From the IMG/VR virus record IMGVR_UViG_3300037088_000515, positions 1 to 44,097 of that record: 44,097 nt of DNA. The stretch is one strand, 5' to 3'. Positions within the stretch are counted from its first letter, which is position 1; every line of letters begins with the position of its first letter. Source of the stretch: a virus. Below the pieces are notes generated by a model. The model saw nothing but the letters and a program-made list of their open reading frames with translations, made no database searches and was not told the origin of the DNA. The translations under genes and the position numbers were made by a program. Shown piece after piece: positions 4,386 to 44,097 of the stretch.

Positions 4386-5369
4386 CTATCGGGCTGTTAG
4401 GTAGGACCGGAGTGAGGCTTTGCGAACCCAAAATACCCCGGAGATGCCCTCGGTGTTGATTTGTTCTTTTTTGAATCCAAAGGATTTGGCCAAGTTGTCG
4501 TAGTACATCTTAACCTTGGCTGGACTGACAGAGGGGTCACGTGCGACCATGCTTTCAATGCTGTTTACTGCCACATATTTAATGCTGTGAGATCTGGCAA
4601 TCTCCAGAATAGTGGCGAGTGCATACTCAGTCCAATCTTCAAATAATTTAGTAAGCTTGCTCTTAATTTCTTCTAGACTCTCAATTGTGTAACCGGCATA
4701 GGCTAGTTGCTGCTTTGAACTACTAAACCGCTGACTCGCCCCAGGAATCTGGTCCACTTGTGCCCTCACACCCTCATTCTGCTCGTTATACCACTCTTCA
4801 AAACTATTGCAACGGCAGAATGCCTGCGCCTGAGTCACCCCATTAACCAGATCTGACTGAATCTCATCAACAAACAAATAATCTTCATTTACAAAGTCTA
4901 CTCTGAGCCAACCGACCGTATTTCTTCCCGCTGGATGACCTGATAGCCCGCTAGCTTGTCCAATCATGTTGACAATCTGTGACAGGGAAGAATCCTCGGC
5001 TAAAATCTTATCCGCTTCAGCCCCACGATTAAGTTGTATGACCAATTGCTCCACATCTCGATAGGAATGCTCTGACTCATGATACTTATCATATGATACG
5101 CCGTAATTATTGCGGCGTAAATCTGCTTGCTGAGAAACCCATTTTTTCAAATGCTCTCTGGTTATAGTTGGTTGGTTATGACGAATCTCTGTGAACAACT
5201 GAGGATACTGTCTCACAGCTTGTTGAAATTTTTGCTGAAACTCTTTCCAACTTAAGGCTTGGATATTCTCATCCACCATAGTTTGATAGGTGCGGCGAAC
5301 CGCATCAAACTCCTTGGATACGGGCTGCTTAGGAAGTTTACTGGTGTCTGGAATCGCTGCCTGCTTCAT
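4386..5369 (-). CDS. Phage protein with EIQSD motif and C-terminal GNAT-like segment
   Basis: I start at ATG 5369, in a TGATG overlap with the previous gene, with GGGAG seven bases upstream. The diagnostic stretch is VGWLRVDFVNEDYLFVDEIQSD at residues about 153-174, which I give here as VGWLRVDF plus LFVDEIQSD. Similar 'EIQSD(W)' stretches occur in large polyvalent phage and MuF-linked proteins of unknown activity. The C-terminal 70 residues (SIKYVAVNS..., then KMYYDNLAKSFGFKK) have the look of the end of a GNAT acetyltransferase fold. So a transferase-like domain is plausible, but no catalytic set can be proven by eye. It is translationally coupled to the SWIM-domain gene. Confidence 0.6.
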   Translation of the reverse strand: MKQAAIPDTSKLPKQPVSKEFDAVRRTYQTMVDENIQALSWKEFQQKFQQAVRQYPQLFTEIRHNQPTITREHLKKWVSQQADLRRNNYGVSYDKYHESEHSYRDVEQLVIQLNRGAEADKILAEDSSLSQIVNMIGQASGLSGHPAGRNTVGWLRVDFVNEDYLFVDEIQSDLVNGVTQAQAFCRCNSFEEWYNEQNEGVRAQVDQIPGASQRFSSSKQQLAYAGYTIESLEEIKSKLTKLFEDWTEYALATILEIARSHSIKYVAVNSIESMVARDPSVSPAKVKMYYDNLAKSFGFKKEQINTEGISGVFWVRKASLRSYLTAR

Positions 5370-7600: not shown

Positions 7601-8536
7601 TTAAGAACGGGTAATTACGATTCTCTCTAATCCGGAAGGATTAAAAATCAAAAATCCGAGGATCTCAAACACTGAGAAGCCAATCTGACGAAGGTCAGGG
7701 CGGTCAGCGGAAAGCACGGTGAGAGGAACACGCTCAGGGATGACACCAAGGAACTCGGCATCAGCCATGACCCAAACGTCACCGTAGGAGACTTTTCTGG
7801 ACTGCAAGATCGTTGCACCCCACAGATAGCCCATAATACCGGTTTTCAGCAAGTGACGCTGAGTCTCACGGTCTACATTGCTATCAGTCCACTTCAGGAT
7901 GTCCACATAATCACGAGGATTCATGAAGATGTAGGCAACTGAGAGGTCGTGACGCTGCACCATACCGAAGGCATCTGCAAAAGGCTCAACAGTCAGGCCG
8001 AAAGTGGTTGAACCATTGACGGTGTAGGCAAGTGAACGATTATACACATAATCGGTATAGAGGGTGCTGGTGGTGGCGGCGGTGGCAGCGGTGTCAATCG
8101 TCTTGAAAAGATTGAACACATAGTTGTCTTCCGCAGCGCCGACTTCCGCCTTAGCCAAATTAAGGGCGCGAGAAACGATATCGAATCTACGCTCTTTGAT
8201 CTGGGTGATGGGGATCATCGGGTTAGCGACGATTTCAAATGTCGGAACCGTCACACGAATTGGGTTTGCAACGTTGACGATATCGCCACCCTGCTCACCA
8301 ACGACGAACGCCTGCACGAAGCTGCGTCCGGTTTCGTCAAATTCCTTGTCGTAGATGGGAAGTGCTCCATCAGGCAAAGTTTCGACCATGAGTGCTTTAC
8401 GAGCGATACTCATGTAATCGCGGCGGCGGCGGAGGGATGGTCCCAGAGCGGCGGCGAGTTTCTGACGGCCTGCTGCGGTCTTGAGAATCTGACCCAACTG
8501 TGCGGTCTGTGCTTGGGTACGGGATAGAATAGTCAT
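7601..8536 (-). CDS. Major capsid protein, HK97-fold (putative)
   Basis: ATG 8536 follows AAAGGGAG. At 311 aa it fits a compact HK97-fold capsid protein. The order fits: a helical N-arm (residues 1-50), a short beta-arm region (DGALPIYDKEFDE), a PTFEIVANP beta strand, then a long spine-like helix (ERRFDIVSRALNLAKAEVGA, residues about 120-140). A-domain-like strands follow (IFMNPRDY, VWVMADAEF). The N-arm carries KTA at residues 19-21, a tripeptide repeated in the neighbouring head and tail proteins, which may be a maturation cleavage site. Downstream of protease, scaffold candidate and decoration gene, and followed by a strong terminator, it is in the expected place. Confidence 0.75.
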   Translation of the reverse strand: MTILSRTQAQTAQLGQILKTAAGRQKLAAALGPSLRRRRDYMSIARKALMVETLPDGALPIYDKEFDETGRSFVQAFVVGEQGGDIVNVANPIRVTVPTFEIVANPMIPITQIKERRFDIVSRALNLAKAEVGAAEDNYVFNLFKTIDTAATAATTSTLYTDYVYNRSLAYTVNGSTTFGLTVEPFADAFGMVQRHDLSVAYIFMNPRDYVDILKWTDSNVDRETQRHLLKTGIMGYLWGATILQSRKVSYGDVWVMADAEFLGVIPERVPLTVLSADRPDLRQIGFSVFEILGFLIFNPSGLERIVITRS

Positions 8537-8551
8537 TGTATTTGTCTCCCT

Positions 8552-9028
8552 TTACAAGAATGACGCAACGCCAAGCCAAGGCTCGGTGGCAGAGATGGCG
8601 TGAGTGCAGATACCCACTGGGGTGACACCAGCAGTGTTCGCTGAACCTTTGGTTGCAGTGAACATACCAGGACCAACACCGCCTACACCGTTTACGTTAG
8701 CGCAATAAAGCAACTGACCGCAAACTGGAGTAGCACCAGTTACCTGAGCCGAAGGAACCTTGAACTTGGGGAAAGCACGGACCACAGGAGTCTTTCCAGA
8801 ACCCGAAGGGGTAATGGAAGAACTGAACTGGCCAGCACCCAAGAGCAAGAAGCCGTAAGGCTGCTCGGGGGAGGCTCCCGTCTGGGAGTTTGCTCCATCC
8901 AGAGGATGGACAATAAGGTTGAGGACGCCAGGGGTGGAAGCTCCACCGTACACGATACTGACAATGGCTCCAGAAGCGTAGCCAGCAGCAGTTAGTGCAG
9001 CGTTATCAACACCGGGGTCACCGGTCAT
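8552..9028 (-). CDS. Putative capsid decoration or head protein (intron-associated)
   Basis: The 158-aa frame from ATG 9028 (MTGDPGVDNAAL) is Gly/Ala/Thr-rich and beta-like, with no enzyme motif. It ends 15 bp before the capsid gene, which suits a head decoration protein. ATG 9028 has no convincing ribosome site. The same frame stays open upstream to a TGA at 9085-9083 and reads like protein (EYYGQNDGTCVPNLTM), so the true N-terminus may be joined from an upstream exon through the group I intron. Alternatively it starts at 9028 by reinitiation: a spliced leader frame would stop at 9033-9031, two bases before this ATG. Confidence 0.65.
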   Translation of the reverse strand: MTGDPGVDNAALTAAGYASGAIVSIVYGGASTPGVLNLIVHPLDGANSQTGASPEQPYGFLLLGAGQFSSSITPSGSGKTPVVRAFPKFKVPSAQVTGATPVCGQLLYCANVNGVGGVGPGMFTATKGSANTAGVTPVGICTHAISATEPWLGVASFL

Positions 9029-9074
9029 AGTCAGATTGGGGACGCAAGTTCCGTCATTCTGGCCGTAATATTCG

Positions 9075-9309
9075 CATTTGTTTCACTTGTGGTTTTCTTC
9101 CCACTAGGAAATTTTCTCTACCACTTCAGTTTTCACTGCCACTACCATTAGTGTTTGTGGTCTGGACTATGCCTTCATCTTGTTGAAATTGCTTCAAGTT
9201 AGATGGGTTATTATAGTCTCTACACGTTCAAATCTTAGCACCGTATGATTTGCTTCGCTCGGCGTTGGCATCAGGGATTACCTGGAAGCGTTCACCGAAT
9301 TTAAACCTT
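9075..9309 (-). ncRNA. Group I self-splicing intron, compact and ORF-less (about 235 nt)
   Basis: Read on the minus strand. The core signature is TAGAGACTAT (9222-9213) and, 43 bases on, GGCATAGTCC, which give a perfect P7 (GACTAT 9218-9213 with ATAGTC 9170-9165). AACGCCGAGCGAAGC upstream resembles the P4-P5 consensus of bacterial group I introns. At the 5' boundary, exon CGTTCGT (9316-9310) pairs with guide GTGAACG (9295-9289), leaving the required U.G at the splice site. The five guide bases just before it (ATTCG, 9300-9296) pair perfectly with CGAAT (9074-9070), a textbook P10, directly after a G at 9075. These fix the likely splice sites at 9310/9309 and 9075/9074. It has no internal ORF. 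Catalysis itself is not shown. Confidence 0.75.
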
Positions 9310-9364
9310 ACGAACGTAATGTTTCCATTGCGCCGACCCGATATACGTTAAGTTCGAGATACAT
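9310..9364 (-). CDS. Likely first exon upstream of the group I intron
   Basis: ATG 9364 has an excellent AGGAGAG site and encodes MYLELNVYRVGAMETLRS before meeting TAA inside the intron at 9310-9308. The last base, T9310, is the predicted 5' splice-site U. After splicing at the predicted sites this frame would run 15 more codons and stop at 9033-9031, two bases before ATG 9028. A different frame of the same exon (NGNITF...) would instead fuse to the decoration-protein frame. So either this is a short coupled leader peptide, or one base is missing or shifted in the exon. Confidence 0.5.
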
Positions 9365-9523
9365 TCTCTACTCTCCTATATGAGTTTTTCGCTTCCCCAT
9401 GGATCAGCCGAGATGGCGAGATCACTACAAGATGGAGTCGCTTGTGCAAATAAGGAAGAGATATTTACAAAACAAAGTTACTTATATAACATGGTTTTCC
9501 AGTATTAGATATAGAGGATAAAA
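9365..9523. promoter_or_regulatory. 159-bp divergent intergenic leader between exon 1 and the homing endonuclease
   Basis: This AT-rich gap must hold the start signals of both the minus-strand capsid-side exon and the plus-strand endonuclease. On the plus strand TTTACA (9464-9469) and TATAAC (9485-9490) are present but only 15 bp apart, which is short for a sigma-70 promoter. Both flanking genes have good ribosome sites (AGGAGAG on minus, AGAGGAT on plus). Nothing else was recognised. Confidence 0.3.
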
Positions 9524-10126
9524 ATGACTAGACCACTGGGGGTTTACCCGTTTCCATATGATACCAGAGCCGGAATTTACCGAATTGAAAATAAATTGAG
9601 CGGAATAGTGTACATCGGCTCTGCTGTTGATTTCTACAGAAGATGGAGAAGACATCATAACGAGCTAACTCGAAAGGTTCACAGTAATCAACATTTACAA
9701 CGAGCTTGGGACAAGTATGGAACAGATTCATTCATTTGGACAGTGATAGAGGAGACCAAACCTGCAAGAGAGGTGCTGCTTTCTCGTGAGCAATATTGGT
9801 TAGATAGGCTCAGAGACGAGGGAGCAGAACTTTACAATACCTGCATTACTGCTGGATCGCATCTGGGTGTGAAACGTTCTGAGAAAACTAAAAAATTAAT
9901 GTCTCAAATTGCCCAGAAACGAGGGGATAATGGCATGGTACGAGATAAAGAGTGGCGAAAACAGATATCTGAAGCAAACAAGAGTAATGTAAAGACTAGG
10001 TGTGGAGCAGAGATGAGAAAGAAGGTGTCGATAGCTCACTCCGGAAAGAGGTGGGTGACCAGAAGTGGAGTAAACAAACAGATTAATCCTGATGATTTAC
10101 AGACTTCCCTATCTGGGGGTTGGTGA
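9524..10126 (+). CDS. GIY-YIG homing endonuclease with NUMOD3-type repeats
   Basis: ATG 9524 has AGAGGAT upstream. Residues 17-100 form the GIY-YIG nuclease domain: GIYRIENKLSG, VYIGSA, the arginine in the DFYRRW segment, a conserved histidine region (HHNEL, HSNQHLQRAW), and YGTDSFIW. The C-terminus carries three NUMOD3-like modules (KTKKLMSQIAQKRG, EWRKQISEANKSN, EMRKKVSIAHSG) that would bind DNA. It is a free-standing gene, opposite in strand to everything around it, 160 bp from the exon that holds the group I intron. This suggests that it cuts an intron-less or endonuclease-less allele nearby, helping spread of the intron. Complete at 200 aa, with no internal stop. Confidence 0.9.
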   Translation: MTRPLGVYPFPYDTRAGIYRIENKLSGIVYIGSAVDFYRRWRRHHNELTRKVHSNQHLQRAWDKYGTDSFIWTVIEETKPAREVLLSREQYWLDRLRDEGAELYNTCITAGSHLGVKRSEKTKKLMSQIAQKRGDNGMVRDKEWRKQISEANKSNVKTRCGAEMRKKVSIAHSGKRWVTRSGVNKQINPDDLQTSLSGGW

Positions 10127-10143: not shown

Positions 10144-10593
10144 TTAATAGAGTAATTCTGCCAATTGACAAGAAAAAGTGGTCAGAGGGAACTCTCTGAG
10201 CATCTGTGGTTTAGTATCACTCTGATAGGAAAAGCTATCATAATTGCTGGAAAAAGACTCAAGATCATCAAGATTCAAACCTGTCACCTCTACCCACTTG
10301 CACTCTTCTGGGTGTAATACATCATCACGACTAACCTGGTACTTTATATTCATATGATTAGCATTAGGATTAGATTTTTTATTTTTAATTTGCTCGTAAA
10401 TCCACATCCAATTCGAAAGATACTGTGCGGTGTGTACCCTATTTCTAAAATAAGGGGTATAGCTGTCTACAAAATAATAAAATTTAGCAGTAGAAGTGCG
10501 TTGTTTAAGGGAGCCCCATATTTTTGAAGGCATAAGCCCTTTTTCTTTAAGGGTATGAATCAATTCCCACGTAGGGCTTTCATTTGTCCACAT
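10144..10593 (-). CDS. Unrecognised AT-rich gene beside the homing endonuclease (149 aa)
   Basis: The frame from ATG 10593 (MWTNESPTWELIHTL) is complete and aromatic-rich (FYYFVDSYTPYF, NWMWIYEQI), and it is richer in A+T than the flanking scaffold and capsid genes. The start has no ribosome site: it is preceded directly by a 9-bp hairpin. A later ATG at 10533 has AAAGGG before it and could be the real start. It sits convergent to the endonuclease, 17 bp apart, in the gap between scaffold candidate and intron. It may have arrived with the mobile element. No family recognised. Confidence 0.5.
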   Translation of the reverse strand: MWTNESPTWELIHTLKEKGLMPSKIWGSLKQRTSTAKFYYFVDSYTPYFRNRVHTAQYLSNWMWIYEQIKNKKSNPNANHMNIKYQVSRDDVLHPEECKWVEVTGLNLDDLESFSSNYDSFSYQSDTKPQMLREFPLTTFSCQLAELLY

Positions 10594-10648: not shown

Positions 10649-11893
10649 TTAGATATCGTCCGTGAAGACGAGGTTGGCAAGCATCTGCTGTTCAGACTTG
10701 GACTCGCTACCAGCGGTCTTGACATTGCCAAGACTGCGGAGCGATGCGGCCTTTGCCGGAGCCTTGCCAGCGACAGTTTTCTTCGGGGCTTCGAGCTTGG
10801 GCTCACCCTCGCGCTTTGCACCTGGATCGTATTTGTCGGTCTTGAGGGTCTTAAGGACTTCATAGAGAATGATGTCTTCATGATCCTCTTCCATATCTGG
10901 CACTCCACCCTCGTTCAAAAGGTCTTCGGCCATATCACCACGTTCCACGATGGGGTCATCCACACCCTGGACCTTGGCGGCTGTCTTCTGATCGGCAAGC
11001 AGAACGTCGAGAGAGGTCACGTCAAAACGGGAAGCATGATGGAAGAAATCTTCTGGGGATGCGGTTGCTCCACCCTCTTCGAGTTCATTGGGCTCGGATC
11101 CAAAGAATCCTGCACCACCATCGGCTTCGACGGGGAGACCGTCCTCACCAAATTCCTCGCCTTCGCCTTCGTCTTCATTGGCCAATGCGTCGGTCTTGTC
11201 GCCCAACTCATCTTCATTGAAGATCTTGCTGAAATCGAGTTCTTCCTCGCCTTCAATTGTCTCTTCCAGAGCCGTAACATCGGCTTCGAGGTTGTCAATC
11301 TTCTCCTGAAGCTCTTCCTTCTTTTCATCAGGAATGGGTTCACCGGAGGGGGCTCCAGCGTCTGCTGGGGGCATATCGTCCATTGGAGGAACATCACCTT
11401 CGGGTGCGGGAGGAATGTCGCCTTCTGCTGGGGGAACTTCATCCATCGGAGGAACTTCCTCAGTTGCTGGTGGCATATCGTCCTTGGGGGCCTCATCCTT
11501 GGGAGCTTCGTCATCATCAGCTTTCTTGGCCTTTGCTGACTTGGGTTCGCCCTTTAACTCGCCCTTGACTTCATTCTGCATCTTCTTAAGGAAAGACTCA
11601 TCTTCCAAGAATTCGTTGAGTTCAACCTTGTGAACCTGTTCAAACTTCTCCGCAACCTTGGTATAATGAGCATTGATGGCAGTCTGACGCAGCATTGCGG
11701 TCAGGGCCTTTGTGGTGTTTGCCAAGAGGGATGAGGCTAACTGGTACTGAACTTCATTTGGAGCGGTCGGGAGCAAAGACTTGGCAAGGGTCCAGGCAGA
11801 AGCTACACGAATTTTGGCTTCCTTGTGTGCGGACTGCTTTGTTTCTCGGACACTAGCGAGACGTTCTTTCAATGACTTGCGATCTTCGGCCAT
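10649..11893 (-). CDS. Acidic, low-complexity protein; prohead scaffold/core candidate (414 aa)
   Basis: ATG 11893 has GGAG eight bases upstream. Residues 1-120 are basic and helical. Residues about 135-200 are Pro/Asp/Glu repeats of the type PPMDEVPPAEGDIPP. Residues about 200-300 are very acidic coiled-coil-like sequence, and a mixed C-terminus ends in LVFTDDI. KTA occurs twice (DQKTAAKV, NVKTAGSES). Highly charged, low-complexity proteins between prohead protease and capsid gene are typical of phage scaffolds, and that is its position here. No sequence family was recognised, so the scaffold call rests on composition and gene order. Confidence 0.6.
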   Translation of the reverse strand: MAEDRKSLKERLASVRETKQSAHKEAKIRVASAWTLAKSLLPTAPNEVQYQLASSLLANTTKALTAMLRQTAINAHYTKVAEKFEQVHKVELNEFLEDESFLKKMQNEVKGELKGEPKSAKAKKADDDEAPKDEAPKDDMPPATEEVPPMDEVPPAEGDIPPAPEGDVPPMDDMPPADAGAPSGEPIPDEKKEELQEKIDNLEADVTALEETIEGEEELDFSKIFNEDELGDKTDALANEDEGEGEEFGEDGLPVEADGGAGFFGSEPNELEEGGATASPEDFFHHASRFDVTSLDVLLADQKTAAKVQGVDDPIVERGDMAEDLLNEGGVPDMEEDHEDIILYEVLKTLKTDKYDPGAKREGEPKLEAPKKTVAGKAPAKAASLRSLGNVKTAGSESKSEQQMLANLVFTDDI

Positions 11894-17357: not shown

Positions 17358-22431
<5,074 letters not shown>

Positions 22432-25000: not shown

Positions 25001-25408
25001 TTATTTTCCCTCACTCCATTTCCTCGCTTGCGTTTTGTTTAGTTTCAGCACATCCTGAGCATACTCGTAGGCCCAATGTGGGCTCGTCCGAATCATAGGC
25101 TCCGCCTCCGGCCATCTCTGTTTCATCACATACAAAGCATAACCGTAGGCCCAATGTGGGCTCGTCCGAATCATAGGCTCCGCCTCCGGCCATCTCTGTT
25201 TCATCACATACAAAGCATAACCGTAGGCATACTGTGGATCAGTCCGAATCATAGGCTCCGCCTCCGGCCATCTTTGTTTCATTACCTTCACAGCATACAG
25301 ATAGGCCCGGTGTGGGTCAGTCATCACCCTTGATTCTAAAGCCCGCCAAAGTGGTTTAGAATGAAGCTTTGTGTCGGATAAACTTTCAATGATATTGGTT
25401 GTGAGCAC
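25001..25408 (-). CDS. Tandem-repeat protein, RWPEAEP type (135 aa)
   Basis: The start is GTG 25408 with AAGGA nine bases upstream. After about 28 residues the protein consists of four 26-residue units with the core AYxYAxxVMKQRWPEAEPMI. Units 2-4 are almost identical, and the last ends in a degenerate copy (AYEYAQDVLKLNKTQARKW). Similar YA...RWPEAE repeats occur in many phage and bacterial proteins of unknown function and probably form helical hairpins. It lies inside the structural block between two virion genes, which is an odd place for an accessory repeat protein. Confidence 0.75.
   Translation of the reverse strand: MLTTNIIESLSDTKLHSKPLWRALESRVMTDPHRAYLYAVKVMKQRWPEAEPMIRTDPQYAYGYALYVMKQRWPEAEPMIRTSPHWAYGYALYVMKQRWPEAEPMIRTSPHWAYEYAQDVLKLNKTQARKWSEGK
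25067..25316 (-). repeat. Tandem 78-bp repeat within the RWPEAEP gene
   Basis: The string GTAGGC recurs at 25067, 25145 and 25223, exactly 78 bp apart, and a diverged fourth copy follows. The first two copies are identical over essentially the whole unit, so they look like a recent duplication. This makes the locus prone to copy-number change. Confidence 0.85.

Positions 25409-39751: not shown

Positions 39752-44097
<4,346 letters not shown>

Follow-up and report, generated by a model that had tools for sequence, protein, structure and literature searches.

How free-standing endonucleases and ORF-less introns came to share a target has been stated to be unclear (PMC10448857), and the head region of a soil phage raises that question in a readable form. 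The window, meaning the whole 44,097-nucleotide stretch analyzed (IMG/VR record IMGVR_UViG_3300037088_000515), is part of a large tailed soil phage whose head region is related to that of Tunturi_5. The latter is an isolated 309-kb jumbo phage (PMC11924767), and its allele of the locus is intronless and without an endonuclease. On the minus strand, the window's gene order is head protease, a gene in the scaffold position, a small decoration-like gene and, last, the major head protein; between the scaffold-position and decoration-like genes lie an orphan ORF on the minus strand and a GIY-YIG gene on the plus strand. The features of the locus are as follows.

7601–8536, minus strand: gene for the major head protein, a downstream marker of the backbone (phrog_2522, 8.5e-41)
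8552–9074, minus strand: exon 2 of the decoration-like gene, opening CGAATATTACGGCC; spliced product 178 aa
9075–9350, minus strand: ORF-less group I intron, 276 nt (RF00028, covariation, restored junction MYLELEYYGQND)
9165–9170, minus strand: P7 3' strand AUAGUC of the intron core (structure alignment)
9213–9218, minus strand: P7 5' strand GACUAU of the intron core (structure alignment)
9351–9364, minus strand: exon 1 of the decoration-like gene, ATGTATCTCGAACT (P1 U.G at the 5' splice site; N-terminus of intronless relatives)
9365–9523, no strand: divergent intergenic stretch, in a recently transferred tract common to L009 (92–99% against ~80% for the backbone)
9524–10126, plus strand: free-standing GIY-YIG homing endonuclease gene, 200 aa, ATG start (PF01541, TIGR01453, residues, pS/pN)
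10144–10593, minus strand: orphan ORF, 149 aa, convergent (tail to tail) with the endonuclease gene; in the exchanged block of sister phages
10649–11893, minus strand: head-region gene upstream, in a scaffold-like position, bordering the exchanged block on its left

Elsewhere in the window, two minus-strand genes encode very long collagen-like Gly-X-X repeat proteins, probably fibers (39752–44097, which runs off the contig, and 17358–18575), and a third minus-strand gene (25001–25408) encodes a small protein of near-identical repeats (MKQRWPEAEPMIRTSPHWAYGYALYV).

The first-pass annotation had proposed collaborative homing, in which a neighboring endonuclease cuts the intronless allele and both elements are copied together. 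We consider it probable, from comparison of sequences, that the locus does work in this way. Exchange of the block between sister phages and co-occurrence of intron and endonuclease in 13 of 13 clusters lend the proposal partial support; the cleavage it predicts, the cut site, protection by the intron and splicing in vivo are inferred.

The intron and its host gene

The long ORF of the window's decoration-like gene lacks the N-terminus that its relatives have, which in intronless members reads MYLELEYYGQNDG (L012, L019/L020) or M[AS]LKL.YYGQND. Joining the exons as ATGTATCTCGAACT/CGAATATTACGGCCAGAATGACGG gives an in-frame product that starts MYLELEYYGQNDG. The intervening segment, which starts after U and has G as its final base, matched RF00028 in a local search with 33.4 bits (E=2.7e-6), short of the gathering score of 50 bits, which is a database threshold and not a structural feature; a Rfam scan of the window at gathering thresholds accordingly gave no match. 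The four related introns of the window, L009, L004 and L011 share a structure of 67 pairs in which 98.9% of cells are paired, and 20 pairs have changed on both sides, compared to 8.1 in shuffles and at most 2 in slid controls. Compensatory change affects three of the four P3 pairs, with GGUU/AACC in some members replaced by GACG/CGUC in others, and one of the six P7 pairs. All four introns have a P1 U.G at the 5' splice site and end in ATG, TAG or GTG. In P10, the first exon-2 base and its IGS partner form G-C, G-U or A-U, depending on the member, and this covariation supports the splice junction itself. By comparative analysis, then, this is a group I intron, with its fold, P1, P3, P7, P10 and junction backed by covariation, and the structure suggests that it splices itself out of the mRNA.

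The first-pass annotation had described the intron as free of ORFs, and none lies within 9350–9075. Its 3' border also stands, exon 2 running from 9074. The 5' border had been placed at 9310 and is corrected to 9350, because the former position would leave exon 1 out of frame and ignore P1. Splicing one base later, with exon 1 ending CTT, was likewise rejected because no in-frame 3' site would then end in G.

Introns at this site fall into two families, with ~40–45% mutual identity by rough alignment, and occupy four positions at −10, −4, 0 and +1 nt of the first Tyr of the Tyr-Tyr codons, all within 12 bp; introns at all four positions restore the same N-terminus. In the second family, 18 of 38 pairs of the consensus fold are compensated and a P7-like GACUA/UAGUC pair is present. 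At E<=0.01, RF00028 found no match in ten whole loci (L011 reached 16.2 bits, L076 nothing), so the family-2 introns rest on their own alignment, the P7-like pair and the consensus fold. The L023/L025 intron has A, not G, as its final base if exon 1 stops at the P1 U.

The interrupted gene belongs to a conserved family, with 16 relatives in a single-sequence search. Its product is tentatively called decoration-like from its position and from weak matches of a protein model to the folds of capsid decoration proteins (best E 0.075). The 5' UTR of this gene (window 9401–9430, minus strand) contains a conserved structured element, present in nearly all relatives and in Tunturi_5, of the form YCY-UAUA-GUCC...GGAU-GGR with an inner hairpin, of which the window has a variant. 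Its outer helix is 99.3% paired, with five of eight pairs changed on both sides among 17 relatives, and the window search matched it to no Rfam family; it might act as an operator of the capsid genes.

The GIY-YIG gene and the neighboring orphan ORF

A complete GIY-YIG gene on the strand opposite the exon, about 160 bp away and divergent from it, had been noted at first pass, and it is real. The 200-aa product of 9524–10126, which begins with ATG, matches PF01541 in Pfam (E=8.9e-13; 48.8 bits with a cut-off of 22.6), the 'homing endonuclease' family phrog_314 in PHROGs (2.1e-24) and the 'group I intron endonuclease' family TIGR01453 in NCBIfam (3.5e-28; 99.1 with a cut-off of 56.05), and the exon-1 and endonuclease ATG codons are 159 bp apart. 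As for the NUMOD3 part assigned to it earlier, Pfam calls NUMOD3 in some relatives and makes no such call in the window's copy. Residues G17, Y19, Y30, G32, R40, E89 and N105 are invariant in an alignment of the enzyme with four relatives. Comparison with the nearest relative, L009, gives a pS of 0.73 and a pN of 0.18, which indicates an intact gene under purifying selection. No second GIY-YIG gene occurs across the 44-kb window. All relatives found with at least 44% identity across most of its length adjoin the decoration-like gene, the closest GenBank phage proteins are ~35% identical, and intronless L019/L020 have an endonuclease in the same place with 37% identity to the window's enzyme.

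GIY-YIG content varies among related large phages, with 10 matches in L006 (313 kb) and none in L017 (140 kb) or L032 (463 kb). In the intronless phage L015, a GIY-YIG remnant (5164–5300, coding strand), consisting of the first 24 residues and then broken off, sits between the scaffold-position and decoration-like genes.

The adjacent AT-rich orphan gene, suggested earlier to be part of the same block, is a real ORF and lies within the tract that is identical in L004 and L008. Its G+C content is 37%, compared to 48% for the window; it is kept at 69–70% in sister phages, and its relatives were found only at this locus. In two sister pairs its pS is 0.01 and 0.86, compared to 0.17–0.34 for the flanks. 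It matches no family in Pfam or PHROGs, and its AlphaFold model was unusable (pLDDT 42).

Exchange of the block between sister phages

Insertion boundaries were expected to be visible by comparison with relatives that lack the intron and endonuclease, and exchange borders can indeed be read at or just past the insertion site. L004 and L008/L010, whose backbones are ~88–90% identical, have in common a tract of 1,546 identical bp that extends from −1463 to +83 relative to the GQN codon. The tract begins just inside the orphan ORF and takes in the endonuclease gene, the intergenic stretch, exon 1, the intron and 83 bp of exon 2; pS is 0.00–0.01 for the genes of the block and 0.18–0.34 for the flanking genes. 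L009 and L004 show the reverse pattern (pS of 0.84–0.86 for block genes, 0.17–0.28 for flanks), with identity rising from ~55% to 100% at the intron 3' end. Between L025 and L027, flanks that are 99.5% and 99.9% identical enclose an HNH gene plus intron in one phage and a GIY-YIG gene without an intron in the other, the right border lying 6 nt before GQN. L051 carries endonuclease and intron and L056 neither, the intervening 5' UTR being kept, and L132 and L078 differ likewise. The window and L009 are 97% identical in the intron, 92–99% in the intergenic stretch and ~80% in the backbone, and the similarity fades within the first part of the endonuclease gene; because this tract comprises the intron, the intergenic stretch and only the endonuclease 5' end, both elements need not move whole together. 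Relative to GQN, the borders in intron-bearing pairs fall at 0, −6, about +30 to +40, and +83. Both versions of the L004–L008/L010 and L025–L027 pairs occur in more than one metagenome each (for L004–L008/L010, in several contigs on either side), which speaks against assembly chimeras. Traces like these would result if a break at the insertion site were repaired by copying in the leftward direction.

Under collaborative homing, the GIY-YIG enzyme would act on a co-infecting relative, cutting the intron-free start of its decoration-like gene at or close to the conserved ...LEYYGQND codons. Donor-templated repair would then copy the intron, exon 1 and the intergenic stretch into the recipient, and a repair tract that reached far enough to the left would also copy the endonuclease gene and the orphan ORF. 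The carrier's own copy would be spared, because the intron interrupts the target, and the intron would remove itself from the mRNA. Tunturi_5, being intronless and endonuclease-free at the locus, indicates that a real recipient exists.

Phage genomes recombine freely, and some sister phages have up to 10 GIY-YIG genes per genome. Ordinary recombination at a variable intergenic spot in endonuclease-rich phages, with no nuclease involved, could thus have brought the two elements together by coincidence. We regard this as extremely unlikely: intron and endonuclease are associated in 13 of 13 clusters, each of the two longest identical tracts of L004 and L008 includes an endonuclease gene, and the enzyme is under purifying selection.

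L004 has a second endonuclease-like gene, of the HNH type, located after the major head protein gene (1661–2911 bases downstream of GQN) and absent there in the window; its start lies within a second tract of identity with L008/L010, 1,021 bp long. The L004 head genes are thus bracketed by endonucleases, like the 'HEG-islands' described previously (PMC10448857).

Co-occurrence of introns and endonucleases

Scanning IMG/VR with the head and decoration-like proteins yielded 88 unique versions of the locus. A divergent endonuclease gene, GIY-YIG or HNH, is in the same place in all 13 intron-bearing clusters; among the 54 intronless clusters it is present in 21 and absent in 33. The earlier concern, that endonucleases might be carried regardless of the intron, is borne out in part by these 21. 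Fisher's test for association gives p=3.7e-5, 1.5e-4 and 0.02 with clustering at 95%, 88% and 80%, respectively, for clusters that are not fully independent. Intron state changes eight times on the head-protein tree, and a phylogeny-corrected test, with five supported independent pairs of which 3.4 on average go the expected way and none the opposite way, is not significant alone because the independent pairs are too few. The HNH type (phrog_655) occurs only with introns (5 of 13 versus 0 of 21, p=0.005).

The 21 endonuclease-bearing intronless clusters, which include L019/L020 and L027, mean that the endonuclease does not need the intron, and it can persist without one and probably home alone. 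An explanation built on this property is that the endonuclease homes alone and cuts elsewhere in or near the gene, such as in exon 2 or the 5' UTR, with the intron a passive, non-protecting passenger in the co-conversion tract. The intronless pairs L064/L071 and L080/L071, which have also swapped endonuclease genes, fit such an account. It nevertheless seems unlikely to us, given that an endonuclease lies beside every intron, that the exchange borders fall at or just past the intron/exon-2 junction and that introns of two families all sit within the 12-bp stretch.

Alternatively, the locus could be the relic of a classical mobile intron that lost its own endonuclease, whose role then passed to a new free-standing gene close by. 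Endonuclease turnover has been proposed for ICP1 (PMC10448857), the window's enzyme belongs to a family named for group I intron endonucleases, and family-2 introns are paired with HNH genes in some phages and with GIY-YIG genes in others, which implies that turnover beside a resident intron also happens. As an account of the locus, a relic is very improbable, since none of the introns at the site (213–281 nt) contains an endonuclease gene and intronless endonuclease genes are commoner than introns. For collaborative homing, the order of events instead looks endonuclease-first, because intronless endonucleases are common, no intron was seen without an endonuclease and the introns have no ORF.

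A finger-like module shared by unrelated nucleases

Several endonucleases of the locus have in their C-terminal part a CCHC finger-like module, ..VN..EN.KL.DY.CP.CG.EF.QVTKGVYGGHRR.CL, with an invariant C-x2-C-x14-H-x3-C. Its carriers include GIY-YIG (L027, L045, L061, L072, L076 and L163), HNH (L023, L044, L067 and L144) and EndoVII (L035) enzymes, and module identity across catalytic types is mostly 40–60%, with E down to 2e-37. Nuclease types were assigned by catalytic domain, as the HNH655 profile also matches GIY-YIG genes because of the shared module; no conclusion draws on the GIY tree, which for this reason includes a few non-GIY rows (L035, L044, L143–L147 and L193). The module occurs once in each of 6 of 14 long contigs, always in the endonuclease adjoining the decoration-like gene, although these 14 contigs have ~51 GIY-YIG matches in all. 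Across IMG/VR, a scan seeded by the conserved peptide, which could miss diverged copies elsewhere, found 37 module loci; all 36 testable ones adjoin the decoration-like gene, and the 37th is near a contig end. A search of 84,980 genomes of bacteria and archaea found no copy of the module. In the PDB, its sequence matches the CxxC half of classical zinc fingers, which suggests that it may bind DNA. The window's enzyme and its nearest kin (L009, L004, L011 and L019) are without the module.

Shared DNA-binding modules such as NUMODs are known generally. Domain swapping among phage endonucleases has been documented for T5orf172 genes (PMC10448857). As judged from these alignments, what is new is that one module at one locus is joined to three unrelated nuclease superfamilies. 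A tentative reading, to which we give slightly less than even weight, is that the 12-bp stretch serves as a shared address: the module would direct GIY-YIG, HNH and EndoVII enzymes there, and introns of two families would have settled at the stretch because an intron shields the target. On this address reading, the window's GIY-YIG enzyme would reach the same spot via a different C-terminal part.

Relation to known systems

Collaborative or trans homing has been described for psbA/F-CphI (PMC6083498), T7-like phages, T4 nrdB and ICP1 terL (PMC10448857), and phage examples have been reviewed (PMC3984707, PMC2988022). The closest parallels differ from the window in informative ways. In the cyanophage S-PM2 (Zeng, Bonocora & Shub 2009, as described in PMC6083498), as in the window, an ORF-less group I intron interrupts a conserved gene and a free-standing endonuclease adjoins it; the psbA intron prevents self-cleavage of the carrier's target, a likeness that extends to the window through the protection inferred there. 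F-CphI, however, has an EndoVII motif and was shown to cut the intronless allele, whereas the window pairs a GIY-YIG enzyme of predicted cutting activity with a capsid gene. In ICP1 terL (PMC10448857), a T5orf172 endonuclease likewise adjoins exon 1 of a head/packaging gene in an HEG-rich phage. The gene and nuclease subfamily are different, splicing was established by RNA-seq and RT-PCR, and, unlike at this locus, alternative nucleases occupying a single site were not described. In T4 nrdB, the free-standing MobE mobilizes an intron without a working endonuclease (PMC2988022), but that intron keeps a defunct I-TevIII, whereas the window's intron has no visible ORF. Finally, the catalytic domain and residues of the window's enzyme are those of the TIGR01453/I-TevI type, although its gene lies beyond the intron, on the opposite strand.

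Implications

The pairing of a free-standing cutter with an intron is known in only a few phages, and the window is a probable further member of this collaborative-homing group, in which the enzyme is of the GIY-YIG type and the interrupted gene is a capsid gene. What is new, to the extent that comparison of alleles can reveal it, is a whole locus in which nucleases and introns are interchangeable at a single 12-bp address. Within this single locus, close relatives have both elements, either nuclease type, the nuclease alone or neither, with readable exchange borders. The finger-like module is also a candidate ready-made, sequence-specific DNA-binding part. If the address reading is true, catalytic domains and introns come and go while the address stays, and collaborative homing would arise endonuclease-first, and repeatedly, instead of from intron-encoded endonucleases. 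The locus favors this endonuclease-first order, and its naturally occurring alleles make the question of how the two elements came to share a target testable.
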